A stretch of 64,000 bases of DNA from assembly GCF_002000985.1 (NCBI RefSeq), contig NZ_CP018822.1, positions 1,878,001-1,942,000 on the forward strand. The letters run 5' to 3'. This document shows positions 11,771 through 29,813 of the stretch, piece by piece. The DNA is from Streptococcus gallolyticus subsp. gallolyticus DSM 16831 (GTDB taxonomy: Bacteria > Bacillota > Bacilli > Lactobacillales > Streptococcaceae). A program made the translations under genes and the position numbers. The stretch's first letter is position 1; every line of letters begins with the position of its first letter. The notes under the pieces are model-generated. The model made no database searches, had not been told where the DNA came from, and saw nothing but the letters and a program-made list of their open reading frames with translations.

Positions 11771-11778
11771 AAAATCAC

Positions 11779-13182: not shown

Positions 13183-13206
13183 AACTTTCTCCTTTGCGGA
13201 GCTTCA

Positions 13207-14046
13207 CTATTTTTCTCCGCTATTTTTTTCATACAACCTGTTGATGTGTATCATCAGGTAAAGTAACTCGTCATCAGATTGACTATATCCCATACTTTGA
13301 TGAATATAATCCATGATAACGACTGCAACTTGATAGATATGAGGTTGACTTTCTTTGAGACTTTGTAAAATAGTCTCATTCCCATTAATAAATGATTCAT
13401 TTTCACGTAGTCGTTTCAGATAATAACGAACATGTGCTTGAAACCTTTGGTAATTAAATTCTTCACGCTCAATACGAATTGCTAATTGGTTTTCAATCAT
13501 CTGTGTCATAATCTCAATCAATTCTTCGATAGCCTGACTTTCGTTGTCAATGTCAAATTCGGCTTGGCTATTGATAAAATGCATGGCAATACTGGTCACT
13601 TCACTGTGTGGGAGATTAACACCTAATGAAGTATTTATCAAAACCAAGGCATCTTCTGCTAATTTCGTTTCCTTAGGATAGAGCTGAGCAACATCCTGTG
13701 AAAAAAGAATTTTCATTTCCTTAAATTCTTTCAATCGACGAATAGCAAATTGGATGTGGTCTGCCAAGCTAAATATCAAAGTCGGATTGAGTTTTCCAGA
13801 CAACTCCTTCTGCGCATTTTGCACGATTTCCACACTAAGCAACATCAAATCTTCTGGAATTTCATCCAAAAGTAATTGAAAATGAGGATCTAATTTATAA
13901 AATGTCATATCAATTTTTGAAAGATCCCCTAGCTCATAAGGCGTCTTTGGAAAACCAATACCACGTCCAAAGGCGACCAACGATTTACCATTATTGTCAA
14001 GACATTCTGCCACATTATTATTGATTTTCTTCACAACTCTCATCAT
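13207..14046 (-). CDS. licT: BglG/LicT-family transcriptional antiterminator
   Basis: A 279-residue regulator with an N-terminal CAT RNA-binding domain (about residues 1-58, starting MMRVVKKINNNVAECL) and two PRD domains whose conserved histidines receive PTS phosphate. ATG 14046 or 14043 both fit the AAAGG ribosome site. The leader carries a matching RNA antiterminator overlapping an intrinsic terminator (14083-14155). In the absence of sugar the neighbouring PTS phosphorylates and inactivates such proteins; with sugar they bind the leader and allow read-through. It should control itself, the PTS permease and the deacetylase. Confidence 0.93.
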   Translation of the reverse strand: MMRVVKKINNNVAECLDNNGKSLVAFGRGIGFPKTPYELGDLSKIDMTFYKLDPHFQLLLDEIPEDLMLLSVEIVQNAQKELSGKLNPTLIFSLADHIQFAIRRLKEFKEMKILFSQDVAQLYPKETKLAEDALVLINTSLGVNLPHSEVTSIAMHFINSQAEFDIDNESQAIEELIEIMTQMIENQLAIRIEREEFNYQRFQAHVRYYLKRLRENESFINGNETILQSLKESQPHIYQVAVVIMDYIHQSMGYSQSDDELLYLMIHINRLYEKNSGEK

Positions 14047-14082
14047 ATCTACCTTTTTCTATTTATGCTATTTGTCCTGCAC

Positions 14083-14147
14083 AAAAAAACTCTTCGAAGA
14101 CATACCACACCCCTTTACTTGATGAACGGTAATGCCTCCCGAAGAGT
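14083..14147 (-). terminator. conditional terminator in licT leader
   Basis: On the minus strand ACTCTTCG (14140-14147) pairs with CGAAGAGT (14089-14096), followed by seven T residues. Its upstream arm lies within the antiterminator at 14128-14155, so the two structures are mutually exclusive. Confidence 0.88.
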
Positions 14148-14155
14148 AACAATCC
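14128..14155 (-). promoter_or_regulatory. RAT (ribonucleic antiterminator) for the LicT-type regulator
   Basis: The minus strand reads GGATTGTTACTC, TTCG, GGAGGCATTACC, matching the LicT/SacY/BglG RAT pattern (GGATTGTTACT...AGGC-AACC). It overlaps the upstream arm of the terminator, the expected architecture for antitermination. Confidence 0.9.
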
Positions 14156-14173
14156 TTGTTTAATTATAGTTTT

Positions 14174-14202
14174 ATTGTAGTTGATTTTGTAAGCGTTGTC
14201 AA
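14174..14202 (-). promoter_or_regulatory. licT promoter with overlapping cre site
   Basis: Minus strand TTGACA (14197-14202), 17-bp spacer, TACAAT (14174-14179). The -35 and spacer are covered by TTGACAACGCTTACAA (14187-14202), a full match to the CcpA cre consensus. Carbon catabolite repression is expected on top of antitermination. Confidence 0.88.
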
Positions 14203-14222
14203 GTGAGATTTTAAAAAAGTTC

Positions 14223-15110
14223 CTATCCAAGTGCTTCTAATGCTTGGCTTGCTTTTGTGACTAATTCGGTATTATTTTCCTCTGTCGCAGTATCTAAAGC
14301 AAGTTGATAGTAAGACTTAGCTTTTTCGATGTCTGCGGCTGTATAAATTCCCTCTTGATAAATAGCACCTAATTGATACGCAGCTGTAGCTTTATCGTGA
14401 GCCTCATTGTCTATCAAATCTTGATATAAACTGATAGCAGTTGTTACATCTTGTGTTGTTCCTTTACCTTCTAGTAAATAATCTGCTTGATAAAGCTGTC
14501 CCGTGCTATCTCCAAGGTCTGCCGCTTTTTTAAAATTCTCATAAGCTTTTTCGTCATTTTGTGTTACGCCTACACCGGCTTGATAAGCAAGCCCCAAATA
14601 GCGATAAGCTTTAAAATCATCCATTTTAGCAGCTTTCCTATAATATTTGATAGCTGTTTTTGCATTATACTCAATGTCACCAAAGTCCTCACCACCACCA
14701 GGGATAGATTCGTGCATATAAAGTAAACCAATATTAGTATAGCCCCGCGGTTGCCCATTTTCAGCAGCTTTTTCCCACCATTCAATAGCACTCTGAACAT
14801 TATCACCTTTGGCAGCTTGACTAATCTTATTTCCTTGATACATTTCACCCATATAGAGCATGGCATCGGCATTTCCTAGTTCTGCTGCTGCTTTTGCAAA
14901 CTTATATTCTAAATCATATTCATTAGTATCAGTCTGCTCGCTAGTATTTTTAAAATACAAGGCAGCTTTTGTTAAGTCTTCAGCAGTAATATTGGATTCC
15001 GTAACAGCTTTTCCTACAGAATCATCTGATATAGATACGGCTTTATAACCAATAACTACTAAAATTATAAAAATTATAGTGCCTAATAATAAATAGTATT
15101 TCTTTTTCAT
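14223..15110 (-). CDS. Sel1-repeat (TPR-like) protein, membrane-anchored
   Basis: A 295-residue protein with an N-terminal hydrophobic segment (about residues 4-25, after MKKKYY) lacking a lipobox, so probably a membrane anchor or uncleaved signal. The rest contains Sel1-like repeats, seen as recurring A-x-x-Y-x-x-A-A-x-x-G-x-x-x-A-x-x-x-L-G-x-x-Y units such as AIEWWEKAAENGQPRGYTNI and YENFKKAADLGDSTG. Sel1 proteins act as protein-protein adaptors. The stop lies just upstream of the licT promoter, and a terminator separates it from the PTS gene upstream. Its relation to the sugar genes is unclear. Confidence 0.8.
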   Translation of the reverse strand: MKKKYYLLLGTIIFIILVVIGYKAVSISDDSVGKAVTESNITAEDLTKAALYFKNTSEQTDTNEYDLEYKFAKAAAELGNADAMLYMGEMYQGNKISQAAKGDNVQSAIEWWEKAAENGQPRGYTNIGLLYMHESIPGGGEDFGDIEYNAKTAIKYYRKAAKMDDFKAYRYLGLAYQAGVGVTQNDEKAYENFKKAADLGDSTGQLYQADYLLEGKGTTQDVTTAISLYQDLIDNEAHDKATAAYQLGAIYQEGIYTAADIEKAKSYYQLALDTATEENNTELVTKASQALEALG

Positions 15111-15154
15111 TTTTATAGCTCCTTTTCTTCGATAGCATGATTATACATTCTCCC

Positions 15155-15193
15155 ACAAAACATCCCTTATAGTTAACAAACTACAAGGGTGTT
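15155..15193 (-). terminator. terminator after the PTS/tannase operon
   Basis: Minus strand ACACCCTTGTAGTTT / AACTATAAGGGATGT arms (15178-15192 and 15160-15174) followed by TTTTGT. Confidence 0.65.
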
Positions 15194-15200
15194 TTCTTAT

Positions 15201-16646
15201 TTATTGCAAAGCTTCTTCGGCACGTTTGTCGCTATACATGATAAATTCGACGATAAAGGTTAATACCATGGCGATAGCAAGGCAGATGAGGACTTTATAG
15301 AAATCACTCATATTGCCAGTGGCAGGGTCAATATAATTGGCTAAGCCAAAGAGACCTTGTCCACCCATGAGGTAAGCTTTCGCGCCTGAAATACCAAGTA
15401 AGACACCACCAATCGCACCACAAACAATGTTAATGGCATATTCTTTCTTCAATGGCAAGAGGATTGAGTACATCAATGGTTCACCAACGGCACAAATTTG
15501 TGAAATGGTTGCTGGTAAAGCGAGGTTTCGAACTTTTGTACTGCGTGCTTTAGCACAGATAGCAAGCCCTTGAGCCATACCGACAAATGGACCAACTGCT
15601 GTAACAACGGCAATGTAGTCAAATCCATTGACCGCAATATTAGAAATCGCGATAGCAAGAACCGCCCAATGAAGTCCGAACATAACCAGAACACCAAAAC
15701 CTCCACCGAGAATAGCGCCAGCAATGGCTCCACCAACATAAGGAATACTATACAAAGCAGAAACCAACCAAGCAAGGCTATTTGAAATAAGCGTAGCAAC
15801 TGGTCCGATAACTAGATAAGTCAAAATGACGGTTACAATCAATGTTACAAACGGTGCAACAATATTTTTCAGCACATCAGGCAATGCTTTGCGCAAACTT
15901 CTATCCAACTTCGCAGCAAATAAAACGGCTAAAATAATCGGAATAACACTTGACGTGTAGCCACTACCAGGCATGATGACAGGAATGCCAAATACAGTCG
16001 TGTAGTAACTCATTTCAAACGACGTTCCTTGGAACACCGTTCCTAAAACATCTGCTGTTGAGCTAAGGTTAACCATTGTTGGGTAAGTCAAAGCGGCACC
16101 AATAGCAGCACCGACAAATTCATTGACTTTGAATTTACGAGCAGCTGTAATTCCTAGTAAGATTGGGAAGTAATAGAAAAAGCCATCACCAAGTGCGTAC
16201 AAAATCATGTACAATCCACTATCGGTATCAATCCACCCCAATGATGAGAAGAAGGACATTAGCCCTTTGACAAGCCCTGCTGCTGCCAAAACCATTAAAA
16301 TTGGAGATAAAACACCAGAAATGGAATCCATAACTTTTGAGACAATGCCTGTCGATTCTTTAGCTACTGGCTCTTCTTTGTCGCCGCTAGCCAATTGGAG
16401 CTGGCTCATTGCCAAATCATAAAGAGGAACCACCAATTTTTCACCGACAACCACTTGGTATTGCCCGCCAGCTTGAACAACCGTCATGACTTCATCCAAA
16501 TCAGTTAACGCTTTTTCATTAGCTAAATGGTCATCTTTTAACACAAACCGTAACCGTGTAACACAATGCGTCAATGATATCACATTATCTTTACCACCGA
16601 CGTTTTCAATAATGCTTCTAACCAAATCTGCTTGATTTTTTGCCAT
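15201..16646 (-). CDS. PTS EIIBC component, glucose/beta-glucoside superfamily
   Basis: A 481-residue PTS permease: EIIB domain with Cys28 (SLTHCVTRLR), then an EIIC domain with multiple membrane segments and the ICAVGEPLMYSILL loop. No EIIA domain. The start at 16646 follows AAGGAAATTATT and lies 14 bp after the tannase-like stop; a longer frame reaching 16685 would overlap that gene and is not supported. Pairing with a tannase-like hydrolase suggests import and phosphorylation of a phenolic glucoside or galloyl-sugar breakdown product. That substrate is inference. Confidence 0.9.
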   Translation of the reverse strand: MAKNQADLVRSIIENVGGKDNVISLTHCVTRLRFVLKDDHLANEKALTDLDEVMTVVQAGGQYQVVVGEKLVVPLYDLAMSQLQLASGDKEEPVAKESTGIVSKVMDSISGVLSPILMVLAAAGLVKGLMSFFSSLGWIDTDSGLYMILYALGDGFFYYFPILLGITAARKFKVNEFVGAAIGAALTYPTMVNLSSTADVLGTVFQGTSFEMSYYTTVFGIPVIMPGSGYTSSVIPIILAVLFAAKLDRSLRKALPDVLKNIVAPFVTLIVTVILTYLVIGPVATLISNSLAWLVSALYSIPYVGGAIAGAILGGGFGVLVMFGLHWAVLAIAISNIAVNGFDYIAVVTAVGPFVGMAQGLAICAKARSTKVRNLALPATISQICAVGEPLMYSILLPLKKEYAINIVCGAIGGVLLGISGAKAYLMGGQGLFGLANYIDPATGNMSDFYKVLICLAIAMVLTFIVEFIMYSDKRAEEALQ

Positions 16647-16660
16647 AATAATTTCCTTTC

Positions 16661-18073
16661 TTAATGAACAATGGCATCCACCCATTGACTAAATTCTTCG
16701 TTATAATCGGCATCAGCATGCCCCATTCCCCAAATCAATTCATAATGAACATCAATACCACGCTTTTTCAAAGCTAACGCTAATAAGTAAGAAATCGCAA
16801 ATGAGGTATCCGCATCTTTTGCCCCTAAACAAATACGATAATGAGAAGCAAGCTGTTTTTCCTCCAAATCAGACTGCAAGAAAGTCATTGGATTTAAGAG
16901 TTTTCTGGCTAATATCAAATCTTCTTCTGCCAAATCAGCTTGAAATGCTTTCTGATAAGCACTCAATGCTGGCAATTTCTCAACATGCTTAGCTACGTTT
17001 TCAGAGAAGTGACGATGATTTTTATCACGACTTCCAAACACTTCTGTTTCAGGTGTTTGATAATCTAAGCTATCAAACGCAGGGCAATCTTTCTTACGTC
17101 CCATATAGTTTACAACATAAGCATCCAAGTCAAAGACAGTCGCTTGACCATTCTCAAAATGGCACCACAATCCTTGCGGGTCTAATTCACGAGCCAATTC
17201 TTCCTTTTCATCGTTTGTTTGAGCATGTTTGGCGAGAAATTTATTGAGTGATAAGCTAAGTTGATTGAGAATACCTTGATAAAAATCCCCACCACGACCA
17301 TCTGCCGTCAAGGATTCACCCAAGTGCAAGCTGTTCACATACTCAGGAAATTCAGCCGCTAAAGACTGACTTAATAACTGTTGACGTTTATTGATAATTT
17401 GAGGTCTAACACGTGAATTAAACGTATAAATTTTCTTTACTTGGAACATCCATTCATACGCCATATCAGCGTGTTCTAAATTTGTAATCGGACAAAAGCA
17501 TTGTGCGGCAAAGATATCATCACGTTGGTCAAGCTCAGCACCAATTTCTTCTAAAAAAGAAAGATATTCTGCTCGATTTCCTGTGCTACCTAGTAAGCTG
17601 CTCATCGCACCGCCAGCACTCGTTCCCACACTAATGATTTTTTCAATATCACCAGGAATGTCATTGTGATGTTTTCTAAGCCACCTAACAGCCGCTTTTA
17701 AATCCACCAAGCCTGCAGGAGCTTTTCCAATGCCATTTTGCGACTGACGACCTCTAGCTCCCACGCTGACAAGGACATAACCATCTTCCAAATAGCGCTG
17801 ATTACGCGGCGTTACCATTGCAGGTTGACATTCAGCATAGCCACCAATATCATTGTAAAAAATGATAGGAACCGTCTGGCTTGTGTAGGTTGTGCCATTT
17901 TTGTTTGTAACCACAGCGTCTCTATCAATTGTACCATCTGCAGTCATATAAACTGCTGGCACAAAGATATGTAAAGCCTCTAGTTCACTATCCTTCGGCT
18001 GAGCACAATAAACATTCTTCAAAGACATATAACAATTATTCGTTTCATCAAAAATCCATTGATTAATTGACAT
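16661..18073 (-). CDS. tannase-like alpha/beta hydrolase (subtype B tannase family)
   Basis: A 470-residue hydrolase without a signal peptide. It resembles the lactobacillar tannase family in the nucleophile elbow GTSAGGAMSS (Ser152), in DIFAAQCFCPITNLEHADMA, and in the C-terminal GMGHADADY (His452). With an Asp near residue 420 (GAKDAD) these fit the Ser/Asp/His spacing of L. plantarum tannase as I recall it. Such enzymes hydrolyse galloyl esters to gallic acid. Co-transcription with a PTS permease, and gallate decarboxylase genes about 1.2 kb away, support this. It could instead be a related feruloyl esterase. Confidence 0.75.
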   Translation of the reverse strand: MSINQWIFDETNNCYMSLKNVYCAQPKDSELEALHIFVPAVYMTADGTIDRDAVVTNKNGTTYTSQTVPIIFYNDIGGYAECQPAMVTPRNQRYLEDGYVLVSVGARGRQSQNGIGKAPAGLVDLKAAVRWLRKHHNDIPGDIEKIISVGTSAGGAMSSLLGSTGNRAEYLSFLEEIGAELDQRDDIFAAQCFCPITNLEHADMAYEWMFQVKKIYTFNSRVRPQIINKRQQLLSQSLAAEFPEYVNSLHLGESLTADGRGGDFYQGILNQLSLSLNKFLAKHAQTNDEKEELARELDPQGLWCHFENGQATVFDLDAYVVNYMGRKKDCPAFDSLDYQTPETEVFGSRDKNHRHFSENVAKHVEKLPALSAYQKAFQADLAEEDLILARKLLNPMTFLQSDLEEKQLASHYRICLGAKDADTSFAISYLLALALKKRGIDVHYELIWGMGHADADYNEEFSQWVDAIVH

Positions 18074-18136
18074 TTAATCCTCCTGATTACTTAAGATACA
18101 AAGGGCGTTAAAAGCTTGTTTCAAATACATATTTTT

Positions 18137-18152
18137 TTGGAAGCGCTTCTAT
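18137..18152 (-). promoter_or_regulatory. cre-like site at the tannase-PTS promoter
   Basis: TTGGAAGCGCTTCTAT has the palindromic AAGCGCTT core of CcpA sites with one mismatch to consensus. It lies just downstream of the minus-strand -10 box, a position suited to repression. Confidence 0.65.
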
Positions 18153-18158
18153 AAATAT

Positions 18159-18187
18159 AATATACAACATTATTTGTGTTTTGTAAA
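18159..18187 (-). promoter_or_regulatory. promoter of the tannase-PTS operon
   Basis: Minus strand TTTACA (18182-18187), 17-bp spacer, TATATT (18159-18164). Confidence 0.65.
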
Positions 18188-18217
18188 TATTTTATTTAAT
18201 ATTTTTTAAATTTTTTA

Positions 18218-18246
18218 TTTACATTATTTACGTCATCACCTATAAT
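18218..18246 (+). promoter_or_regulatory. promoter of the rpiR-type regulator
   Basis: TTTACA (18218-18223), 17-bp spacer, TATAAT (18241-18246). Divergent from the tannase-PTS promoter; an AT-rich segment between them is a plausible regulator-binding region. Confidence 0.75.
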
Positions 18247-18274
18247 AAATTTAAGAGAAGGGAACGAATGGTAT

Positions 18275-19015
18275 ATGAATCCACTAATTATCATGGAAAG
18301 TTTGAAAGAACAATTCTCACCAGCAGAATTAGCTATTTATGATTTAATCAAAAAACAACCGTCTTTAGTCACCCATGCTACGACGACTGATTTAGCCAAA
18401 AAAGCAGGTGTTTCTCAGCCAACGCTAACTCGTTTTGTCAAAAAACAACTTGGCTATAAACGTTATCAAGATTTTCGCTTTGACTTTATCAACTGGCTTT
18501 CATCAAACAACGCCACAAACACCGATGAGGACAATGAATATTTCACGCGCCTCACCAAATTACTCGAACTCACTAAGGCAACGTTGACCGATGAGGTTAT
18601 GACTGATTTAGCAAGCTTTTTATCACAAAGCGAGCATTTATTTGCCACTGGTGGTGCCAAAAGTTTTTTAAGTGCCAAATTATTTGAAACCTTGATGCGG
18701 AAAATGGGAGTTTATGTGTCATCTTATTCAACAGATTACCTTGATGATGCCGTTAACTATTTCAAAAAAGACGATTTATTGCTTATCTTTTCAGCAGGCG
18801 GCGATTCCACTTACATTCGCAAAATCACCAATTTGAAATGCAAAACACTTTTAGTAACAGCCAATCCAAATGCCAAATATCGCAAGCATTTTGATAAAGT
18901 CATCACACTCCCAACTCTTTCAGGAGACTGGGAATATGATTCCATTTCCCCAATTATGTTTGACATCTTCACAGAACTCCTTGTCACACATTATGCCAAA
19001 CAAATGAAAAACTAA
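18275..19015 (+). CDS. RpiR-family transcriptional regulator
   Basis: A 246-residue regulator with an N-terminal winged helix-turn-helix of the RpiR type (AKKAGVSQPTLTRFVKKQLG, about residues 45-65) and a C-terminal SIS sugar-phosphate-binding domain (LIFSAGGDSTYIRKI). It is divergent from the tannase-PTS operon and so probably senses the phosphorylated product of that PTS. The GAAGGGA ribosome site is about 11 nt from the ATG, a little long. An intrinsic terminator follows the gene. Confidence 0.9.
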   Translation: MNPLIIMESLKEQFSPAELAIYDLIKKQPSLVTHATTTDLAKKAGVSQPTLTRFVKKQLGYKRYQDFRFDFINWLSSNNATNTDEDNEYFTRLTKLLELTKATLTDEVMTDLASFLSQSEHLFATGGAKSFLSAKLFETLMRKMGVYVSSYSTDYLDDAVNYFKKDDLLLIFSAGGDSTYIRKITNLKCKTLLVTANPNAKYRKHFDKVITLPTLSGDWEYDSISPIMFDIFTELLVTHYAKQMKN

Positions 19016-19027
19016 CGCAACAACCAA

Positions 19028-19068
19028 AAGCCACCCGATTGTTGAAAACGGGTGGCTTATTTATTTTT
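19028..19068 (+). terminator. terminator after the rpiR-type gene
   Basis: AAGCCACCCG / CGGGTGGCTT arms (19028-19037 and 19049-19058) followed by ATTTATTTTTT. Confidence 0.9.
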
Positions 19069-19126
19069 TCACTGAAATGGATTAAAAGGAGTTTCGTTTT
19101 TTTGAGTTGTATTTGTCTAAACTAGT

Positions 19127-19534
19127 TTATTGTTTGGTGTTTTTTTGGTATTTTGGGTGACTGATTGGTGATTTTTCAATTTTTAACCATGTGCCAATCT
19201 TGCTAGCAAGTTCTTTGGTCATTTCAAAAGCGCCAGCAATTTGTTCTTTGCTAATACCGTCAACATGGACACCTGAGGTGATTACACAATTTTGCGGCAA
19301 CAGCTCTGCTATTTCTTCCAAAAGAACATCAGCCAAAACGTCATCTTTATGAAAACGCCCTGAATGGCTTGGAAAACGCACCACTTGCTTGTCCGCATTT
19401 TCTTTACAATAAGTGGTTACTGTGCCAATATGAGGATGGCTTCCGCCTGTCAATTGAATAAACAAGTCAGCGCCAATATAGTCAACCTGCGCTTGAATAG
19501 AATACCCATAGTCTGTCACTTCAAATGTTGCCAT
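19127..19534 (-). CDS. lpdD: gallate decarboxylase small subunit LpdD-like
   Basis: A 135-residue protein resembling the small LpdD/VdcD-type subunit that accompanies UbiD-like phenolic acid decarboxylases (prenyl-FMN chaperone-like family). Recognisable stretches are FIQLTGGSHPHIGTV and VITSGVHVDGISKEQI. The ATG follows the stop of lpdB with no intervening base, and its ribosome site (GGTGAT) lies inside lpdB, implying translational coupling. With LpdB and LpdC it should make the active gallate/protocatechuate decarboxylase. It ends in a Lys/Asn/Thr-rich tail. Confidence 0.85.
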   Translation of the reverse strand: MATFEVTDYGYSIQAQVDYIGADLFIQLTGGSHPHIGTVTTYCKENADKQVVRFPSHSGRFHKDDVLADVLLEEIAELLPQNCVITSGVHVDGISKEQIAGAFEMTKELASKIGTWLKIEKSPISHPKYQKNTKQ

Positions 19535-20104
19535 CTAATCACCATCCCAACGTCCAGCATAATCATTGCGAATGTGCAAAGCATCTAGTAATTTAGCAGT
19601 ATTGTGGTCGATAATATCTTGCAAAGTCTTAGGATGATTGTAAAAGGCTGGTACAGGCGGAATGATTTGTACACCCATCCGTGATAATTTTGTCAAATTT
19701 TCCAAATGAATCGTATTTAACGGTGTCTCACGTGGGACAATGATGAGTTTGCGTTGTTCTTTTAAAGCCACATCAGCTGCGCGACCAATAAGATTGTCTG
19801 AAAAACCGCAAGCGATACCTGCAACAGTTTTCATGGAAGCTGGAACAATCACCATACCGTCTGTCAAGAAAGACCCTGAAGCAATTTTGGCACCCAAATC
19901 CTTGTTAGAATAAAGCACATCACACAAACTGGCAAATTCATCATGTGACATATCGAGCTCCAGTTTTAAATTCTCATGTGCCCAGTCAGACATGACCACA
20001 TGCGTTTCAATGTCAGGATATTCTTTTAGTTTCTTTAATAAATTGATAGCATAGATTGTGCCTGAAGCGCCAGAAATAGCTACCACAATACGTTTTTTGC
20101 TCAT
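19535..20104 (-). CDS. lpdB: flavin prenyltransferase, UbiX/LpdB-like
   Basis: A 189-residue UbiX-family protein. The Rossmann-like N-terminus VVAISGASGTIYAINLL and the C-terminal PPVPAFYNHPKTLQDIIDH with its preceding IVPRETPLNT are diagnostic. It prenylates FMN to give the prenyl-FMN cofactor needed by the UbiD-type LpdC. The start at 20104 follows GTGAGGTGCTT; a frame from 20134 lacks a good ribosome site. lpdD follows with zero spacing, while lpdC lies about 530 bp upstream on the same strand. Confidence 0.93.
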   Translation of the reverse strand: MSKKRIVVAISGASGTIYAINLLKKLKEYPDIETHVVMSDWAHENLKLELDMSHDEFASLCDVLYSNKDLGAKIASGSFLTDGMVIVPASMKTVAGIACGFSDNLIGRAADVALKEQRKLIIVPRETPLNTIHLENLTKLSRMGVQIIPPVPAFYNHPKTLQDIIDHNTAKLLDALHIRNDYAGRWDGD

Positions 20105-20327
20105 AAGCACCTCACTTTTGTAATGAATACTCACTGAAAATCAACATTAGACTAAGTAGCACAAATGCAGATAGAACCGAAGGTCATCAAATCAAGTCAA
20201 CAATATCTAAGTCCGATTTTCAAAGCGTATAAGGACAATCGTTTTTTAACTTGCCACTTGCTTAGCTAGCGTACCAACGACTACCAACTTAAAAATTCTT
20301 AATTGAAGACGACCCTAGGCTATGCAG

Positions 20328-20352
20328 TGAAATCATCCAGTGGATGATTTCA
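20328..20352. repeat. dispersed hairpin repeat, TCC-AGT-GGA core
   Basis: Perfect 11-bp inverted repeat TGAAATCATCC / GGATGATTTCA with loop AGT. The downstream flank (CCCGAACCAAGAAAAGAAAG) resembles the flanks of the copies at 46078 and 62677. Confidence 0.6.
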
Positions 20353-20552
20353 GCCCGAACCAAGAAAAGAAAGAGTGAGGGGGTCGGAAATCTGTATCGT
20401 TAACTAGTTACTACCAGCCGTAAATGACTGAAAACCTTGTCACCTTAACAGTCAACCGCACCTTTCTAGTCGTTCTGGCAGGGTTAAGCAGAGGAAATCA
20501 TAGATTTCTGGCTTACCGCCATTTTTTCTTTGCTCTTTAAACGCCCTTTGTC

Positions 20553-20592
20553 TCTTAAAATAAGAGGTTGGAAGATTAGCTCCAGCCTCTTA
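20553..20592 (-). terminator. terminator after lpdC
   Basis: Minus strand TAAGAGGCTGGA / TCCAACCTCTTA arms (20581-20592 and 20561-20572), followed by TTTTAAGAG. Confidence 0.75.
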
Positions 20593-20661
20593 TTAATGAT
20601 TACTTGCCTTATCTTCTATCTCATTTTATCAACAGTTTTGTTATCTAAAATGAGTTAGCAA

Positions 20662-22137
20662 TTAATCTAAATATTTTTTCCAATCAGGAACTTCTTTAAA
20701 TTTAGCACGCTCAAATTGGTCTTTCATGTCAAATGGTACTGTACCGTCAAGGACAAGTTTAGATGACATTCCTCGTACACGGATGTGTTCTGGTGAATAT
20801 TCTGGACGTTCTGATGGGTCAAGTGGGTGGTTACGCATACCTTCCAACGACATAATATCTTTGTGGGCTTGGAAGCGTGTATTGATTGTCCACATGACAT
20901 CATTCATATCAAAGATATCCACATCTTCATCAACAAGGATAACTGTTTTGAGTTCTTTGAAAGATGAGAATGCTAGCAATGCAGCTTGACGTTGAATACC
21001 TTCATCTGCAGGATTTTCTTTGCGGATTTGCATGATTGTCATCAATTTACCGCCACCAGCTGGTGGATTGTAAACATTAAGCACTTTACCAGGGATAGCT
21101 TTGTCAACCAAGTTAAGGATAGAAGCTTCTGTTGGAATACCTGCCATTGACACGTGTTCTTCAGAAGGCCCAATTGTTGTTTGCATAATTGGATTATCTT
21201 TACGGTGAGTAACCGCTTTAACTTTGATAACATTTAAAGCTGGATTGGCTGGACCATTGTAACCTGGGAATTCAGGCATAGCATGACCTGTATGCGTATT
21301 AATATCTTCTTGAATTGTTTCATTTGGAAGGATTTCACCTTCAATGATAAATTCAGAACGTGCAATACCAACTTCATCAACAGCGATAGAATCAACCAAT
21401 TGAACAGGTTCGTTACGAAGCGCACCTGCAACCCAAAGTTCATTGTAACCAAGTGGTGTCGTTGGTGGTTCAAATGTCGCCCCAATCAAGATAGCAGGGT
21501 CAAGACCAATATTGATTGTAATTGGCATTGGTTTGTTAAGTTTTTGATATTCTGACAAGAAAGCACCAATGTGACGACCACCAGGCATGATATAAATACC
21601 AATAGTATCTTTATCTTCCAAAACCATACGGTGAATTGTAACGTCACTCATTGATTTATCTGGCGTTGAACCATAAACCAAACCAGTTGTGATGTAAGGT
21701 CCTGCATCGTATTCTGTATTTGTTGGCGCAGCAATGAGCTTACGAATATCAAAATCATCATCAGTTGCTAAGTGAACAACTTCTTGAGCAGGTGCTTGGT
21801 CCTTAGAAACTTTAACAGGTTTCACTGGATTTTCAACGGCTTTGTTCAAAAGATGTCCAAGGTCTTTGTAATCATGATGAAGAATATGACCAACACGTTT
21901 ACGGCTTGCCATTGTACCAATATTGACACGAACATTAGGGAATCCCTTAATGTTATTGAAGGTCATTGCTGGACCTTCTTGAGTTGGACGTTCTACGGTA
22001 CCGCCAGCTCCGATATAACGGTAAACGCCAGAAATTTCAGCGTTTGGATCGATTTCAACATCCGTTTCATGGTATTGTCCTGGAATTTCTTTAAGTTCTT
22101 CCAAGACTTTACGCAAATCATAAGGTTGTTCTGACAT
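20662..22137 (-). CDS. lpdC: gallate decarboxylase large subunit, UbiD family (LpdC-like)
   Basis: A 491-residue UbiD-family prenyl-FMN-dependent decarboxylase. Diagnostic stretches include GGTVERPTQEGPAMTFNNIK, VTIHRMVLEDKDTIGIYIMP and VILVDEDVDIFDMNDVMWTI. Length and sequence fit the bacterial gallate/protocatechuate decarboxylase group, which converts gallate to pyrogallol. AAGGAAGTAAATCTT precedes the ATG. A LysR regulator gene lies immediately upstream on the same strand, and lpdB/lpdD lie downstream beyond a terminator. The nearby tannase-like gene supports gallate as substrate. Confidence 0.93.
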   Translation of the reverse strand: MSEQPYDLRKVLEELKEIPGQYHETDVEIDPNAEISGVYRYIGAGGTVERPTQEGPAMTFNNIKGFPNVRVNIGTMASRKRVGHILHHDYKDLGHLLNKAVENPVKPVKVSKDQAPAQEVVHLATDDDFDIRKLIAAPTNTEYDAGPYITTGLVYGSTPDKSMSDVTIHRMVLEDKDTIGIYIMPGGRHIGAFLSEYQKLNKPMPITINIGLDPAILIGATFEPPTTPLGYNELWVAGALRNEPVQLVDSIAVDEVGIARSEFIIEGEILPNETIQEDINTHTGHAMPEFPGYNGPANPALNVIKVKAVTHRKDNPIMQTTIGPSEEHVSMAGIPTEASILNLVDKAIPGKVLNVYNPPAGGGKLMTIMQIRKENPADEGIQRQAALLAFSSFKELKTVILVDEDVDIFDMNDVMWTINTRFQAHKDIMSLEGMRNHPLDPSERPEYSPEHIRVRGMSSKLVLDGTVPFDMKDQFERAKFKEVPDWKKYLD

Positions 22138-22220
22138 AAGATTTACTTCCTTCTTAAAGATTTCATATTAAAAGTGTAAACCTTCAATCACCGATAAACA
22201 ATTCAAGTTAGGCGTTTTCC

Positions 22221-22237
22221 TATTCCTATTTGGAATA
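22221..22237. promoter_or_regulatory. candidate LysR operator upstream of lpdC
   Basis: TATTC-CTATTTG-GAATA, an inverted repeat with the T-N11-A pattern of LysR sites, 84 bp upstream of the lpdC start and overlapping the lysR stop codon. The same arms and the same 7-bp spacer occur at the lysR promoter (23133-23149). Confidence 0.6.
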
Positions 22238-23110
22238 TTTTTCTTGCATTCCTTTCCAGAATACATCCAAAGCTGGTGTTGTTTTCTTCTTACGACGGAT
22301 TAGATTCATTTCTGACACCATATCAACCTCCAACGGACGACAGATAATTGCTTTCGTTTTAAACGGTGCAACCAATTTTTCCATCATCACCGAAACACCC
22401 ATTTCTTTTTCAATAAAGTCAATGATGAGATTGATACGATTTCCTTGATAGCCCATTTTCGGTTCAAAACCATAGGTATGACAAAGTTCTCGTACTTTTT
22501 GGAGCAACTGCGTTTTATTGCCAAGTTGGAAGAATGTCTCATCTTTCAATTCAGCCAAATCAAGTTTTTCCTTGTTGGCTAAGGGATGATTTTCAGGCAA
22601 AACCAAGACAAAACGGTCATAATCTAAGGTTAGACTATCATAAATATCAGGAGCAGCTTTGGTAAAAGAACGCGTAAAGACCACATCGCAGATGCCATCA
22701 TCTAAACTATGCATCAGCTGGTCAGCCTCTTCTTCCTCGACAACAACCGTGTAATCAGGATACTGCTTTTGAAAAGCTGCAATATCTGAAATAATAGGAT
22801 AAGAAGACATACTCGGAATACCATGAATGGTTAGTTTATGTTTTTCTTGTTCAGACAAATCCTCTAATGTCTCTTGCATTTCTTGAAAAGTGCCCATAAT
22901 CTTTTGAACATAAACTCGCACAATCTCCCCTTCTTCTGTCAGAGAAATTTGACGATGTTTACGATTAAACAAAATCACACCCAACTCTTTTTCAAGCGCA
23001 ATGATTTGCTTTGAAATGCTTCCTTGCGTTGTATAAAGTTGTTCTGCTGTCTCGGTGTAATTCAACGTTTCACACAAGCTAAGAAAGACTTGAAATTTTT
23101 GGAAATTCAT
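22226..23110 (-). CDS. LysR-family regulator of gallate decarboxylase
   Basis: A 294-residue LysR-type regulator: N-terminal winged helix-turn-helix (about residues 1-60, with AEQLYTTQGSISKQIIALEK) and a C-terminal periplasmic-binding-like effector domain. It is transcribed toward lpdC and away from a DUF554 gene. Matching inverted repeats at its own promoter and just upstream of lpdC suggest autoregulation and control of lpdC. LysR regulators near tannase or gallate genes are known in lactobacilli, so gallate is a likely effector; that is inference. Confidence 0.88.
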   Translation of the reverse strand: MNFQKFQVFLSLCETLNYTETAEQLYTTQGSISKQIIALEKELGVILFNRKHRQISLTEEGEIVRVYVQKIMGTFQEMQETLEDLSEQEKHKLTIHGIPSMSSYPIISDIAAFQKQYPDYTVVVEEEEADQLMHSLDDGICDVVFTRSFTKAAPDIYDSLTLDYDRFVLVLPENHPLANKEKLDLAELKDETFFQLGNKTQLLQKVRELCHTYGFEPKMGYQGNRINLIIDFIEKEMGVSVMMEKLVAPFKTKAIICRPLEVDMVSEMNLIRRKKKTTPALDVFWKGMQEKYSK

Positions 23111-23128
23111 TTCCTGCTCCTATTCTTA

Positions 23129-23153
23129 ATACTATTCCATTTTAGAATAGTAT
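23129..23153. promoter_or_regulatory. LysR operator overlapping the lysR -10 region
   Basis: Perfect 9-bp arms ATACTATTC / GAATAGTAT with a 7-bp centre (CATTTTA) containing the T-N11-A pattern. On the minus strand TGATATACT, an extended -10, overlaps one arm, so binding would repress lysR. Confidence 0.7.
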
Positions 23154-23169
23154 ATCACAAAAATCTGAA

Positions 23170-23197
23170 TTGTTTTTTAAAAAGTTGGTGTTAAAAT
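23170..23197 (+). promoter_or_regulatory. promoter of the DUF554 gene
   Basis: TTGTTT (23170-23175), 16-bp spacer, TAAAAT (23192-23197); a leader of about 100 nt precedes the ATG. Confidence 0.55.
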
Positions 23198-23302
23198 GTA
23201 ACAGAAAAGAAAGAATTCACAATAATAGAACACGGTCTAGCAGTCAACACTAATGTTTTCAAACTGTTAATGACTTTGTTTCTTATGAAGGAGGAAAATT
23301 GT

Positions 23303-24031
23303 ATGCCTACTGGCGTCATCATTAATGCCCTATCAGTCGTTTTTGGAGGGCTACTAGGTGGTCTTGTTGGAAACAAATTATCAGAAGACTTCAAGACACA
23401 AATCAATATGATTTTTGGGGTCTGCTCAATGGGAATGGGGATTTCATCTATCGGATTGATGAAATACATGCCCGCTGTTATCTTTGCTATCGTTATCGGA
23501 ACAGGGATTGGACTTGCACTTCATCTCGGTGATTGGATTAACAAAGGCGGTGCCCTCATGCAACGTAGCATGGCAAAGATCGTGCCAAACGACCATTCAT
23601 CACTATCTCATGAAGATTACCTTGCTACCTTGTTAACTGTTATCGTACTTTTCTGCGCAAGCGGTACTGGTATTTATGGTAGTCTAGATGCAGGAATGAC
23701 TGGTGATTCAACAATCTTGATTTCAAAATCAATTTTGGACTTCTTTACAGCAGCTATTTTTGCTTGTAATCTAGGTTATGTGGTATCACTTGTTGCCATT
23801 CCACAATTTATCATTTTCTGCTGCCTCTTCTTCTTGTCAGCCTTCATCGTGCCACTTACAACACCTGATATGATTGCTGATTTCAAAGCCTGCGGTGGTT
23901 TTCTAATGCTTGCCACAGGTTTCCGTATGGTAAAACTGAAAATGTTCCCAATTGCCGATATGATACCAGCCATGATTCTCGTCATGCCACTTTCTTGGTT
24001 CTGGGTTAATGTTATTCTACCATTGCTATAA
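23303..24031 (+). CDS. DUF554 family membrane protein
   Basis: A 242-residue integral membrane protein of the DUF554 (YdfK-like) family, with about seven hydrophobic segments and glycine-rich stretches such as NALSVVFGGLLGGLVGNKL. The start at 23303 is set by AAGGAGG 8 nt upstream. The function of the family is unknown; transport has been suggested from its topology. Divergent placement from the LysR gene and sharing of its operator region raise the possibility that it moves gallate, pyrogallol or a related compound. Confidence 0.85.
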   Translation: MPTGVIINALSVVFGGLLGGLVGNKLSEDFKTQINMIFGVCSMGMGISSIGLMKYMPAVIFAIVIGTGIGLALHLGDWINKGGALMQRSMAKIVPNDHSSLSHEDYLATLLTVIVLFCASGTGIYGSLDAGMTGDSTILISKSILDFFTAAIFACNLGYVVSLVAIPQFIIFCCLFFLSAFIVPLTTPDMIADFKACGGFLMLATGFRMVKLKMFPIADMIPAMILVMPLSWFWVNVILPLL

Positions 24032-24071
24032 TAACTATCATTTTTAAACATTCAACATGTCACATACGTAG

Positions 24072-24114
24072 AGAGATAAAATTATTTTCGGCGAGATAAT
24101 TTTATCTCTTTTTT
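24072..24114 (+). terminator. terminator after the DUF554 gene
   Basis: Perfect arms AGAGATAAAATTAT / ATAATTTTATCTCT (24072-24085 and 24096-24109) followed by a T-run. The remaining bases to the marR promoter (24115-24323) are AT-rich with no gene seen. Confidence 0.88.
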
Positions 24115-24323
24115 ATGTTCAAAAATCACACCTGTTTAAGTTATTGAAATTTTTTTGCTATTTCATTTTTTTAACTTATCATAGAAAAAATGATTTGTAA
24201 GTTTTCTAAGTTTATTAGAATACTTTTAATAGAAAAAATAATCATCTCTCCCAATGCTTTGATACTATATCTTAGCCTCTGTTATATTAATTGTCCGACA
24301 TCGCTTTTGAAAAGCTACCTCAT

Positions 24324-24352
24324 TTGTATTCTTCATTTAAGTGTGTTATCAT
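24324..24352 (+). promoter_or_regulatory. promoter of the marR-type gene
   Basis: TTGTAT (24324-24329), 17-bp spacer, TATCAT (24347-24352). Confidence 0.65.
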
Positions 24353-24385
24353 ATTTTCTATAAAACTTATATTAAGGAGAATGTC

Positions 24386-24814
24386 ATGTCAAAAAATATT
24401 CAAGAATCACTTGACTCTTGCCTATTTTTTACTGTAAAAAAGCTGGATCGTGCCCTCAACAAATTGGCGGAGGAATCTTTCCAAAAAGTTGGAATGACTC
24501 CAACTTATGCCTTTATTCTTCTTATTCTTGCGGAAGAAGATGGCAGATTGCAAAAGGATATTGCACAAATACTTTATATCGCACCTTCTACCTTGACACG
24601 CCTTGTTGAGAAATTGGTCTATAAAGGTTATGTCACAACACAAACTGAAGGACGTACTCGAAAAGTTTATCTTACAGTCAATGGCAGAGAACTTTTACCA
24701 GATATCCGAGAAGCTTGGGACAATTTGCATGCCCGTTATAAAGCTATTCTTGGTGATGATTACGCTGATGACTTGGCTTCTATCATCAATATCAATTCAG
24801 AAAAATTGAGATAA
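24386..24814 (+). CDS. MarR-family transcriptional regulator
   Basis: A 142-residue winged-helix regulator of the MarR family, with the recognition region DIAQILYIAPSTLTRLVEKL and the beta-wing TEGRTRKVYLTVNGREL. ATG 24386 follows AAGGAGA; the longer frame from 24341 overlaps the promoter. It is followed by an SRPBCC-like gene and a nitroreductase gene, a grouping typical of responses to small aromatic or electrophilic compounds. It probably represses itself and the promoter at 24871. Confidence 0.9.
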   Translation: MSKNIQESLDSCLFFTVKKLDRALNKLAEESFQKVGMTPTYAFILLILAEEDGRLQKDIAQILYIAPSTLTRLVEKLVYKGYVTTQTEGRTRKVYLTVNGRELLPDIREAWDNLHARYKAILGDDYADDLASIININSEKLR

Positions 24815-24845
24815 TCGGAGAGCAAGAAACTCCGATTTTTATATT
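24813..24845 (+). terminator. terminator after the marR-type gene
   Basis: AATCGGAG / CTCCGATT arms (24813-24820 and 24830-24837) followed by TTTATATTTTTT. Confidence 0.85.
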
Positions 24846-24870
24846 TTTTAAAAATTTTGAGTTAAAATAG

Positions 24871-24899
24871 TTGTATGTACAAACAATCTATGTTATACT
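24871..24899 (+). promoter_or_regulatory. promoter with palindromic operator, SRPBCC-like gene
   Basis: TTGTAT (24871-24876), 17-bp spacer, TATACT (24894-24899). The -35 lies within the palindrome TTGTATGTACAA (24871-24882), a size and symmetry usual for MarR operators. Confidence 0.65.
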
Positions 24900-24931
24900 A
24901 TCTCCATTAACAAATGAAAGAGGTATATTTT

Positions 24932-25435
24932 ATGTTATCTATTAATTTTCCAGAAAAATTCACACCAGGTTTGACTGATAACTTTGTTTCAAACGAAGTT
25001 GTCTTTAAAGACCTTGACTTTGACAAAATCCTTGACGGTCTGCTTGACGCTGGTAAATGGGAAACTTATTACGAAAATTCATCAGACGTGCACATGTATA
25101 ACCAAGACTCTACTGTTCTTAAAAACGACACACGCTTCCGCTTTAAAACATTTGGTTTTGACGTTGAAGCTCAAGTTGAAGAATATGATTTAGATGCTGA
25201 AAATGGTGTTTTACGCTTAGCATGGCATGGTTGGAACGAAGCTGAAGGCGATGAATTTCTTGACGTTTACCATGCTTGGTTAGTTCAAAAATTGGACCGT
25301 AACCGTGTTCGTATCTTGACACAAGAATCTCAAATCGGTACACCTGCTAAAGAGTTAGCAAAATCTGTTCCTAATACAATGATGCTTGGTCACCAAGCTT
25401 GGTTAGACGGACTTGTTGCCTTTGCTAAAGACTAG
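24932..25435 (+). CDS. SRPBCC-like hypothetical protein
   Basis: A 167-residue soluble protein. Its layout suggests the SRPBCC (polyketide cyclase/START-like) ligand-binding fold: an early FDKILDGLLDAGKWETYYEN, a central run of beta-strand-like segments and a long C-terminal helix MMLGHQAWLDGLVAFAKD. This is a fold-level impression rather than a firm family match. ATG 24932 is chosen because AAAGAGG lies 8 nt upstream; ATG 24914 would include that site. It lies between a MarR regulator and a nitroreductase and may bind a small hydrophobic compound. Confidence 0.75.
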   Translation: MLSINFPEKFTPGLTDNFVSNEVVFKDLDFDKILDGLLDAGKWETYYENSSDVHMYNQDSTVLKNDTRFRFKTFGFDVEAQVEEYDLDAENGVLRLAWHGWNEAEGDEFLDVYHAWLVQKLDRNRVRILTQESQIGTPAKELAKSVPNTMMLGHQAWLDGLVAFAKD

Positions 25436-25483
25436 AAAAAATAGCTTCTAAGTGTTATCATAGAAAGAAAACTGGAGAAAGCT

Positions 25484-26161
25484 ATGTCAAAAGAAGATAT
25501 CAAAAAACAAATTCGTACTGCCTTTGACCACCGTGTTGCTGTCCGCGTTTACAACGACCAAGAAATTTCCCATGATGATATGGATTTTATCCTTGATACA
25601 GCTTGGTTGAGCCCTTCTTCTATTGGTTTGGAAGCTTGGCGCTTCGTTGTTCTTGACCGCAAACAAATTGAAAAACTTCGTGATGAACTCAAAGCCGTTG
25701 CTTGGGGGGCTCAATACCAATTAGATACAGCAAGCCATTTTGTTCTTCTCATTGCTGAAAAAAATGCACGCTATGATTCTGAATCGGTCAAAAATAGCCT
25801 TATTCGACGTGGTCTCGGTGAAGGTGATGCTCTTAACAGCCGTTTAGCAACCTACGAATCTTTCCAAAAAAATGATATGAAAATGGCTGATAATCCACGC
25901 GCTTTGTTTGACTGGACTGCCAAACAAACTTATATCGCACTTGGAAATATGATGACCACAGCTAGCATGCTTGGCATTGACTCTTGCCCAATCGAAGGGT
26001 TCAATTACGAAAAAGTCAATAGCATTTTAGCTAATGCAGGCATCATTAATCCTGACAACGAAGGTATCGCAAGTATGGTATCATTTGGTTATCGCCTACG
26101 CGACCCTAAACACCCACGCTCACGTAAACCTCGTGAAGAAGTCATTACATGGCTCGATTAA
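25484..26161 (+). CDS. nitroreductase-family NAD(P)H oxidoreductase
   Basis: A 225-residue FMN-dependent nitroreductase-family protein. Typical features are the N-terminal HRVAVRVYNDQEIS, the WLSPSSIGLEAWRFVVL FMN-contacting region, TYIALGNMMTTASMLGIDSC, and the terminal FGYRLRDPKHPRSRKP. CTGGAGAAAG precedes the ATG. Members reduce quinones, nitroaromatics or act in redox stress. Position in the MarR group and near gallate genes fits handling of quinones from oxidised polyphenols; that link is inference. Confidence 0.9.
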   Translation: MSKEDIKKQIRTAFDHRVAVRVYNDQEISHDDMDFILDTAWLSPSSIGLEAWRFVVLDRKQIEKLRDELKAVAWGAQYQLDTASHFVLLIAEKNARYDSESVKNSLIRRGLGEGDALNSRLATYESFQKNDMKMADNPRALFDWTAKQTYIALGNMMTTASMLGIDSCPIEGFNYEKVNSILANAGIINPDNEGIASMVSFGYRLRDPKHPRSRKPREEVITWLD

Positions 26162-26265
26162 AAATATAGAAACCCACTCCCTTATCCTCGATGAAAAGAT
26201 ATTAGTCAACTACTACATATCCTTTTCAAAGAGAAAATTAACCTTTCATTAACACCGTATAACCA

Positions 26266-26308
26266 AAAACCAGTTCTGAATGTTGACGTTCAGGACTGGT
26301 TTTGTTTA
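26266..26308. terminator. terminator between convergent nitroreductase and GH1 genes
   Basis: AAAACCAGTTCTGAA / TTCAGGACTGGTTTT arms with one mismatch (26266-26280 and 26289-26303), then TGTTTATAAA; A-rich on the other side, so possibly bidirectional. Confidence 0.8.
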
Positions 26309-26360
26309 TAAAATCAATGACAAGAGAAGATTACACTCATTATTGATTGAATTTTTCTTT

Positions 26361-29704
<3,344 letters not shown>

Positions 29705-29740
29705 AGCTAACCTCTTTTTGTAATTTTTGTCATTTTGTTT

Positions 29741-29754: not shown

Positions 29755-29759
29755 CCCTC

Positions 29760-29788: not shown

Positions 29789-29813
29789 TATTTTTTGATA
29801 TTTTTTATAATTA

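Follow-up and report, generated by a model that had tools for sequence, protein, structure and literature searches.

A cytoplasmic tannase gene of Streptococcus gallolyticus is paired with a sugar PTS gene, suggesting intracellular use of galloylated sugars

The closest described system is that of Streptococcus gallolyticus UCN34, whose tanB-sgdCBD cluster (GALLO_1609, GALLO_1611-1613) has already been described and partly characterised (PMC4218992). Its tannase TanBSg shows an activity of 577 U/mg on methyl gallate, a compound that induces tanB 6-fold and sgdC 507-fold in this strain; TanA activity, decarboxylation of gallate, and induction of tanA, tanB and sgdCBD are also reported (PMC4218992). 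These data answer, for UCN34, what the sequence-only reading had proposed about galloyl-ester activity and about induction of tanB and sgdC. TanBSg is reported to be effective only on esters of short aliphatic alcohols; no published result was found for sugar or sugar-phosphate esters. The enzymes, their clustering and the absent signal peptide are not new, and the novelty at first seen in the location of tanB near gallate decarboxylase genes falls away. The UCN34 paper makes no mention of PTS or RpiR genes, and it is the PTS gene directly downstream of tanB that holds up as the unmentioned part of the locus. A tannase-PTS pairing is likewise not described in the accessible parts of PMC3102119, PMC7583611 and PMC9801417. 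No report of a tannase paired with an RpiR regulator was found in a literature search outside of which lay subscription papers and preprints, so that absence is no proof, and transport results for a tannase-linked PTS were not found in the literature either.

The window analysed here is a 64,000-nucleotide stretch of the genome of S. gallolyticus subsp. gallolyticus DSM 16831. It resembles UCN34 in having the same genes in the same order, in the single gene number between tanB and sgdD, and in the distant position of tanA on the chromosome (about 874 kb from tanB in DSM 16831 versus 691-750 kb in published strains). An ORF check found every gene that the sequence-only reading had placed within these 9 kb, and Pfam and NCBIfam matches support the families (PTS EIIB and EIIC, BD-FAE-type hydrolase, RpiR HTH, PAC_bac for SgdD, Flavoprotein for SgdB, UbiD for SgdC, LysR and DUF554); the starts of EIIBC and SgdB needed refinement. 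The minus strand carries a LysR regulator gene (22226..23110), sgdC (lpdC; 20662..22137), a 527-bp gap, sgdB (lpdB; 19535..20104) and sgdD (lpdD; 19127..19534). These are followed by rpiR on the plus strand (18275..19015, PF01418) and then, again on the minus strand and divergent from rpiR, by tanB (16661..18073) and the EIIBC gene (15201..16646). A DUF554 membrane protein gene (23270..24031, plus strand, PF04474) diverges from the LysR gene. An Rfam search of 14000-26500 and 19900-20900 gave no match. A 17-bp repeat at 18098 and 20535 occurs at four places in the genome with up to two mismatches, only these two being exact.

The UbiD, UbiX and LpdD genes grouped in the window make up a gallate decarboxylase (LpdBCD/SgdBCD) set. 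SgdC is assigned as a UbiD-type gallate decarboxylase from its UbiD Pfam domains and the published gene order, and SgdD from PF21758 and its position, which is that of the published sgdD. SgdB, whose most probable start codon is the ATG at 20104, matches the UbiX-type flavin prenyltransferase model NF004685 (PRK06029) at 254.7 versus a cut-off of 188. The narrower NCBIfam models were not reached (VdcC, 393.8 versus 650; VdcB, 263.3 versus 290). The LysR protein is a candidate gallate sensor for sgdCBD; among the compared loci, which are given below by their L numbers, LysR and DUF554 genes also lie near sgdC at L164, L165 and L169.

The tannase-like hydrolase of the sequence-only reading is a TanB tannase. 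It passes the NCBIfam model for subtype B tannases (NF041556, 363.4 bits versus a cut-off of 300) and scores 210 bits against tannase 6yq4, and its AlphaFold model (mean pLDDT 94.8) has tannases for all of its top 14 PDB matches, with TMq 0.78-0.82. Alignment shows that it keeps catalytic S152, D420 and H452 and the galloyl contacts K328, E342 and D422, the roles of these residues being taken from PMC4218992 and their positions transferred by alignment. At the place of D420 in this Ser-Asp-His triad, TanA of the same genome has Gln. Galloyl-ester activity, published for TanBSg, is predicted for the DSM 16831 copy. The protein has 470 residues, within the 470-570 expected of subtype B, and by crude hydropathy it has no signal peptide (maximum 1.52 versus 2.37 for TanA). 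That lack was earlier taken as unusual and as implying import. The lack itself stands, but it is usual for TanB and does not discriminate PTS-linked from other TanBs: a strongly hydrophobic N-terminal stretch occurs in 0 of 19 PTS-linked TanBs versus 4 of 50 others. Some subtype B tannases do carry signal peptides, according to the part of PMC8958541 available to us.

The tannase-linked PTS protein (481 residues) has EIIB and EIIC domains above gathering score (PF00367, 56.9 bits; PF02378, 101.7 bits). Its gene most likely starts at 16646, behind a AAAGGAAA stretch and 14 nt past the tanB stop; the start at 16685 given earlier is less likely. Its best NCBIfam match is the beta-glucoside PTS model TIGR01995, at 425.5 bits, which is below the IIABC cut-off of 614.7; the match reaches no further than position 455 of the 618 in the model, and a IIA domain was not found in the protein. 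Assignment as a plain beta-glucoside IIABC was rejected on this score and because the protein belongs to a clade of its own. The EIIBC tree also took in 38 sampled rows of undefined gene context, one of them named Konateibacter massiliensis. In this tree the 12 linked EIIBCs used all fall into one clade of 58 rows, and each of the 46 unlinked EIIBCs lies outside it; L221, L230, L234, L240, L241 and L267 were left out of the unlinked set as wrong reading frames that are not EIICs. The linked EIIBCs had been collected via TanB, and a reverse search of 842 genomes with a model built from those same EIIBCs, limited to the best few candidates per genome, found no additional EIIBC scoring like them. 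By PF02378 the genome has 18 EIIC loci, two adjacent pieces being treated as one.

Is the tannase co-transcribed with the PTS, as had been proposed? A shared tanB-EIIBC transcript is likely from the gene anatomy and the pairing recurs in evolution, but it does not extend to sgdCBD. A single transcript of tanB, PTS and sgdCBD was ruled out in the window; the plus-strand rpiR sits between, making tanB-PTS and sgdCBD separate transcription units. The 6-fold response of tanB to methyl gallate against 507-fold for sgdC fits two operons answering to different signals. Ahead of tanB on the minus strand, pattern matching gives a promoter-like site, TTTACA-17-TATATT (18159..18187, 10 of 12 matches), and a cre-like site for CcpA, TTGGAAGCGCTTCTAT (18137..18152, one mismatch to the consensus used), near the expected transcription start. 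The cre-like site is present in L020 (one mismatch) and L019 (two) and was not found at the corresponding place in L021. A candidate operator resembling TGTATA-N7-TATACA (18148..18166, minus strand) is imperfect in the window, where 19 of 1000 two-base shuffles are as good. It is perfect at L024 and L141 (2 of 1000 each), fair at L154 and L129 (32 and 35 of 1000) and, by the same shuffles, no better than chance at L021, L128, L134 and L150. After the EIIBC gene the same strand has a terminator-like hairpin (15164..15189), a pattern match of which the region holds 5 versus 6.9 in shuffles. RpiR proteins 34-65% identical occur at eight other PTS-tannase loci (L021, L024, L128, L129, L134, L141, L150 and L154), and those of Enterococcus raffinosus, L034 and L133 are just 20-25% identical. 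The RpiR family usually senses sugar phosphates.

A PTS membrane component adjoins TanB on the same strand in the window and in other genomes, and the adjacency in the window is above the background of the compared loci. PTS genes make up 16 of the 94 same-strand immediate neighbours of TanB versus 11 of 663 other locus genes (Fisher p 4e-9), and 10 of 74 versus 9 of 516 (p 2e-5) after thinning to <70% TanB identity. The pairing is seen in Streptococcus, E. raffinosus, another Lactobacillales genome, Lachnospiraceae and Olsenella-type actinobacteria. Both gene orders occur, the PTS-linked TanBs fall in two separate TanB clades, and, given the starred branches of the TanB tree, the EIIBC label must have been gained or lost at least four times. 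At five Lachnospiraceae loci a non-homologous mannose-class PTS replaces EIIBC. L141 reads EIIBC-tanB-EIIA-sgdC-sgdB-sgdD with rpiR divergent. The E. raffinosus case, outside both alignments, is annotated as RpiR, PTS EIIC and subtype B tannase; its EIIC ranks first among 855 plasmid records (52.2%, runner-up 44.4%), and its TanB is also top-ranked in the TanB search. Most of the TanB genes examined are without a PTS neighbour (PTS within 400 bp at 18 of 71 loci), and other transporters found beside TanB are a CitMHS permease (L025, L155, L156) and an MFS_2 sugar symporter (L147). For TanBs encoded on plasmids in Priestia, Acidovorax, Agrobacterium and Acinetobacter, the incomplete gene table shows no annotated PTS within 4 kb. 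TanB also occurs in the unannotated Fusobacterium record H2.

The likely co-transcription and the evolutionary recurrence favour the earlier suggestion that import and phosphorylation precede hydrolysis, the genes and their linkage being shown and the substrate and its phosphorylation inferred. In our view tanB and EIIBC probably form a two-gene operon for the intracellular use of galloylated sugars. The secreted lipoprotein TanA would leave small galloyl-sugars with a free 6-OH outside, the simplest cargo being 1-O-galloyl-beta-glucose (beta-glucogallin) or a comparable hexose with one or two galloyl groups. EIIBC, with an EIIA from elsewhere in the cell, would import and phosphorylate it. 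Cytoplasmic TanB would then split the ester to gallate and a sugar phosphate for glycolysis, and SgdC, using prFMN from SgdB, would decarboxylate the gallate to pyrogallol. RpiR, and CcpA at the cre-like site, may control tanB-PTS, and LysR may control sgdCBD. Counting against this reading are the many TanBs that lack a PTS neighbour, the reported restriction of TanBSg to short alkyl esters, and one linked TanB (L026) that has Arg in place of the catalytic Ser. A search of alignment columns for a phosphate-binding basic residue specific to PTS-linked TanBs also found none, and among polar or basic columns it gave one weak Ser/Thr column only.

It is unlikely that the PTS instead takes up glucose itself, or some other simple sugar, after TanA has released it outside the cell, with TanB acting on gallate esters that get in unaided and the two genes paired merely through joint usefulness on tannin. 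Such a division of labour would suit the reported restriction of TanBSg to short alkyl esters and the induction of tanB by methyl gallate, an impossible sugar-PTS substrate. Yet the genome already has 17 other EIIC loci, the best curated match of EIIBC is of beta-glucoside type, the EIIBC clade tracks TanB across genera, and three PTS-TanB genomes (G1068, G1072, G1078) gave no TanA-type match at E 1e-40. Less probable still is that the pair serves another aromatic acyl-sugar, such as protocatechuoyl- or vanilloyl-glucose, by an otherwise identical mechanism. Bacterial tannases do cleave protocatechuate esters as well, and no decarboxylase genes are seen at the mannose-class loci L022, L023 and L027, where the sequence starts at or near tanB; against this, the three galloyl-hydroxyl contacts are conserved in 19 of 19 aligned PTS-linked TanBs, and sgdC and sgdB lie close to the pair at the window, L021, L024, L128 and L141. 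Accidental adjacency would have PTS genes simply being common (18 EIIC loci here) and the module spreading as one transferred piece; transfer is suggested by tanB genes 97% identical in S. moroccensis and S. orisratti. This reading is already disfavoured and most improbable in view of the enrichment that persists after thinning, the two gene orders, the two TanB clades and the non-homologous PTSs.

The import-phosphorylation-cleavage route thus preferred suggests how pieces of plant tannin enter the cell, which is a concrete and testable answer. If true, it would make gallotannin breakdown a sugar source besides detoxification, account for the existence of cytoplasmic tannases alongside secreted ones, and extend the range of PTS pathways by an esterase-coupled type. 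Evenly balanced, in our judgement, is the wider proposal of a dedicated acyl-sugar PTS class, in which galloyl-glucose would be phosphorylated on entry and then split by an esterase and not by a phospho-glycosidase. Tannin use would then be a sugar-PTS process with more than one origin, drawing on PTSs of the glucose superfamily and of the mannose class in Bacillota and Actinomycetota of the gut.

Lactiplantibacillus plantarum, with its tanB, lpdC and lpdBD genes, is alike in combining a TanB tannase with a UbiD-type gallate decarboxylase, and its TanB is intracellular according to the part of PMC9794748 available. Two locus numbers from its tanB (lp_2956) lies lp_2954, which gallic acid induces about 3-fold; in the accessible part of PMC4600210 a fold server suggests that it is an orphan EIIC and the authors link it to GlcNAc use. 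L. plantarum differs in that the accessible literature on these genes shows no EIIBC-TanB pair. In beta-glucoside PTSs of the Bgl/Asc type, an aromatic sugar conjugate enters through a glucose-superfamily EII, which phosphorylates it, and is then split by a cytoplasmic phospho-beta-glucosidase. The route proposed for tanB-EIIBC is alike, but the tannase-linked EIIBC forms its own clade and its partner hydrolase is an esterase, the tannase, in place of a glycosidase.

The gene families named by the sequence-only reading agree with Pfam and NCBIfam matches. On the minus strand of the window lie genes for a LysR regulator (22226-23110), the gallate decarboxylase genes sgdC (20662-22137), sgdB and sgdD (19127-19534; sgdB lies between the other two), the subtype B tannase gene tanB (16661-18073) and a gene for a sugar-PTS membrane component, EIIBC (ending at 15201); the regulator gene rpiR (18275-19015, plus strand) sits between sgdD and tanB, divergent from the latter. 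The EIIBC gene most likely starts, judging from the sequence, at 16646, 14 nt after the tanB stop, with the stretch AAAGGAAA. No IIA domain was found in this EIIBC using Pfam. Pattern matches alone place a promoter-like site before tanB (18187-18159, minus strand) and a hairpin with a T-rich tail after the EIIBC gene (15189-15164), terminator-like sites being no commoner in the region than in shuffled sequence. A cre-like site (18152-18137) and an imperfect operator-like palindrome (18166-18148) overlap the region where transcription is expected to start. The 17-bp motif ACAAAGGGCGTTWAAAG occurs exactly in just two places in the genome (2.49 Mb, a single contig), in opposite orientation: the tanB leader (18098-18114, plus) and the sgdC-sgdB gap (20535-20551, minus). 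The leader of a streptococcal locus, L020, shows further, related copies.

The 470-residue TanB scores above the curated NCBIfam cut-off for subtype B tannases. Its nearest solved relatives by sequence are tannases, as are the first 14 PDB matches of its AlphaFold model (mean pLDDT 94.8), and alignment shows that the nucleophile S152, acid D420 and histidine H452 are present, together with the galloyl-contact residues K328, E342 and D422. The same genome has a TanA-type (secreted lipoprotein tannase) gene, a 605-aa frame at 1.02 Mb, whose product has Gln at the acid position, matching published TanA. The lack of a signal peptide in TanB had been taken as distinctive, but strongly hydrophobic, signal-peptide-like N-terminal stretches (0/19 PTS-linked TanBs vs 4/50 others) do not separate the two groups.

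Is the pairing of tanB with a PTS gene found elsewhere? A homologue search with the window TanB gave a close tannase set (P0001-P0050, 44-97% identity), and a scan of genome contigs with the alignment of this set gave 24 loci. TanB was also searched for in 395 Lactobacillales, 397 genomes in the family of a Lachnospiraceae locus (G197) and 140 in the family of an actinobacterial locus (G203); 17, 35 and 115 genomes, respectively, had a match, many of the 115 being TanA-type only, and 54 regions were taken from these matches. Leaving out the window, 18 of 71 TanB-type ORFs have a same-strand PTS gene at most 400 bp away. The order RpiR, tanB, EIIBC is common to S. moroccensis, S. orisratti and Streptococcus sp. 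UBA6071 (L019-L021), and in L021 is followed by sgdC, sgdB, sgdD and a TanA-like gene. The reverse order, with EIIBC before tanB, is that of Olsenella-type genomes, some of the Lachnospiraceae and another Lactobacillales genome (L163, where the EIIBC piece has no EIIB domain). In L141 a single gene run comprises EIIBC, tanB, EIIA (PF00358), sgdC, sgdB and sgdD, with RpiR divergent. In five Lachnospiraceae loci (L022, L023, L024, L026, L027) tanB is followed by a mannose-class PTS, with IIB, IIC and IID at every one of them and IIA at four (L026 runs into the contig end); Pfam identities were checked on L024. An Enterococcus raffinosus CX012922 record, in neither alignment, has RpiR, PTS EIIC and subtype B tannase annotated adjacently. 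Its EIIC is the top match to the window EIIBC among 855 matching plasmid records (52.2%; second 44.4%); pairwise, the EIIBCs are 52% identical and the tannases 38%. The divergent RpiRs vary more: at eight loci they share 34-65% identity with that of the window, at three, including E. raffinosus, just 20-25%.

Of 94 genes immediately next to tanB on the same strand, 16 are PTS genes, vs 11 of 663 other genes in the loci (Fisher p 4e-9); when TanBs are thinned to <70% identity, the counts are 10/74 vs 9/516 (p 2e-5). Such a neighbour is found in 15/67 loci and 9/50 representatives. The TanB tree divides the PTS-linked rows between two separate clades (supports 95 and 99); given its starred branches, the EIIBC label must have been gained or lost at least four times.

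The transporters were analyzed with a search model built from twelve tannase-linked EIIBCs, scoring just the best candidates per genome. It gave three matches at 832-846 bits (next, 541) in the 397 G197-family genomes, six at 817-859 (next, 597) in the 140 G203-family genomes and, in 305 Lactobacillales, the window's own alone at 800 (next, 473), scores that are inflated because all ten of these top EIIBCs also served to build the model. Scored separately, S. moroccensis (G026), which is not among the twelve, reached 791 bits, and the linked EIIBC from G527 reached 741. The EIIBC of L033, split around an OrfB/TnpB-type gene, scored lower (439 for one piece). Among the best candidates scored in these 397 + 140 + 305 genomes, no EIIBC was equally close to the linked set without having a tannase, and at 52 loci with lower-scoring matches neither TanA nor TanB was found in the ~1.5-kb flanks (0/52). 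A FastTree phylogeny of 126 EIIBC rows has a 58-row clade (support 99) containing all 12 linked rows, 8 rows on contigs equal in size to TanB-bearing contigs (two of these are identical to linked proteins) and 38 of unassigned context; none of the 46 unlinked rows falls inside it (six of the 52 so labelled were wrong frames). Since it was TanB that led to the linked rows, the 38 are the real test of linkage. Contigs of exactly equal size appear in the TanB and EIIBC match lists 6 times vs 0.24 expected (jittered sizes; at most 3 in 2000 trials).

Other results do not fit a simple story. The majority of TanB genes examined have no PTS neighbour. A CitMHS permease adjoins TanB in L025 (9956-12857), L155 (6998-9743) and L156 (6986-9893), and an MFS_2 sugar symporter in L147 (5603-8428), which suggests that the substrate or product of the tannase may travel by other routes. 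No annotated PTS lies within 4 kb of the plasmid TanBs of Priestia, Acinetobacter, Acidovorax and Agrobacterium. On the plasmid of the gammaproteobacterium Acinetobacter sp. ESL0695 (L276, 2758-5317), an RpiR-family gene adjoins TanB with no annotated PTS. L137 has just an EIIBC fragment, 2.1 kb from TanB, and in the L026 TanB the catalytic Ser is replaced by Arg. The PTS-linked TanBs showed no signature of phosphate binding.

The most likely overall route is TanA to PTS to TanB to SgdCBD, of which we infer the substrate and the phosphorylation step. Extracellular TanA would strip polygalloyl glucose; the PTS would take up and phosphorylate a hexose bearing one or two galloyl groups and a free 6-OH; TanB would cleave this into sugar phosphate and gallate, the latter being converted by SgdCBD to pyrogallol. 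The curated EII family nearest to the window EIIBC is TIGR01995 (NCBIfam), and beta-glucogallin resembles the aryl beta-glucosides that this family carries. Both the cre-like site and RpiR, whose family usually senses sugar phosphates, are in keeping with a sugar operon. A passage of PMC9794748 states that in L. plantarum TanA alone hydrolyses gallotannins, molecules too large to enter the cell. The TanA step cannot be general, since some PTS-TanB genomes have no TanA-type gene at E 1e-40.

The region has been described in S. gallolyticus UCN34 (tanB, GALLO_1609; sgdC, sgdB and sgdD, GALLO_1613, 1612 and 1611), where methyl gallate induces sgdC 507-fold, sgdB 90-fold, sgdD 54-fold, tanA 14-fold and tanB 6-fold (PMC4218992). 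The weak tanB vs very strong sgdC response fits two separate signals. The sgdC-sgdB gap (20135-20661) is 527 bp vs ~40 bp in L021, and has no ORF of at least 80 aa or Rfam match; it may be the cause of sgdC induction far above that of sgdB and sgdD.

The LysR gene and a divergent DUF554 membrane-protein gene (22226-24031) have counterparts in other Lactobacillales (L164, L165, L169), again close to tannase and sgdCBD genes; as this pairing recurs, DUF554 may be a transporter tied to the pathway. On either side of the region lies another PTS operon: a YdjC-like protein, EIIBC and BglG-type (CAT_RBD, PRD) antiterminator (11021-14046) and, from reading translations, a GH1-like glycosidase and EIIBCA-like gene with a divergent RpiR-like gene (26361-30620).

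With methyl gallate as substrate, TanBSg shows an activity of 577 U/mg, and it is effective only against esters whose alcohol is short and aliphatic (PMC4218992); a passage of PMC3102119 places the SGGB_1624 tannase in the cytoplasm and SGGB_0917 outside the cell. The Results and discussion of PMC4218992 do not mention PTS, phosphotransferase, RpiR, 1608, 1610 or transport; the tannase and decarboxylase part is thus already known and the PTS partnership alone may be new. The tannin pathway is known; the PTS-coupled tannase module is apparently undescribed, no account of it having been found in the one open full-text library searched. According to passages of PMC4600210, the nearest published case is L. 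plantarum lp_2954, two locus numbers from tanB and ~3-fold up with gallic acid; it is a proposed orphan EIIC, but is tied to GlcNAc use.
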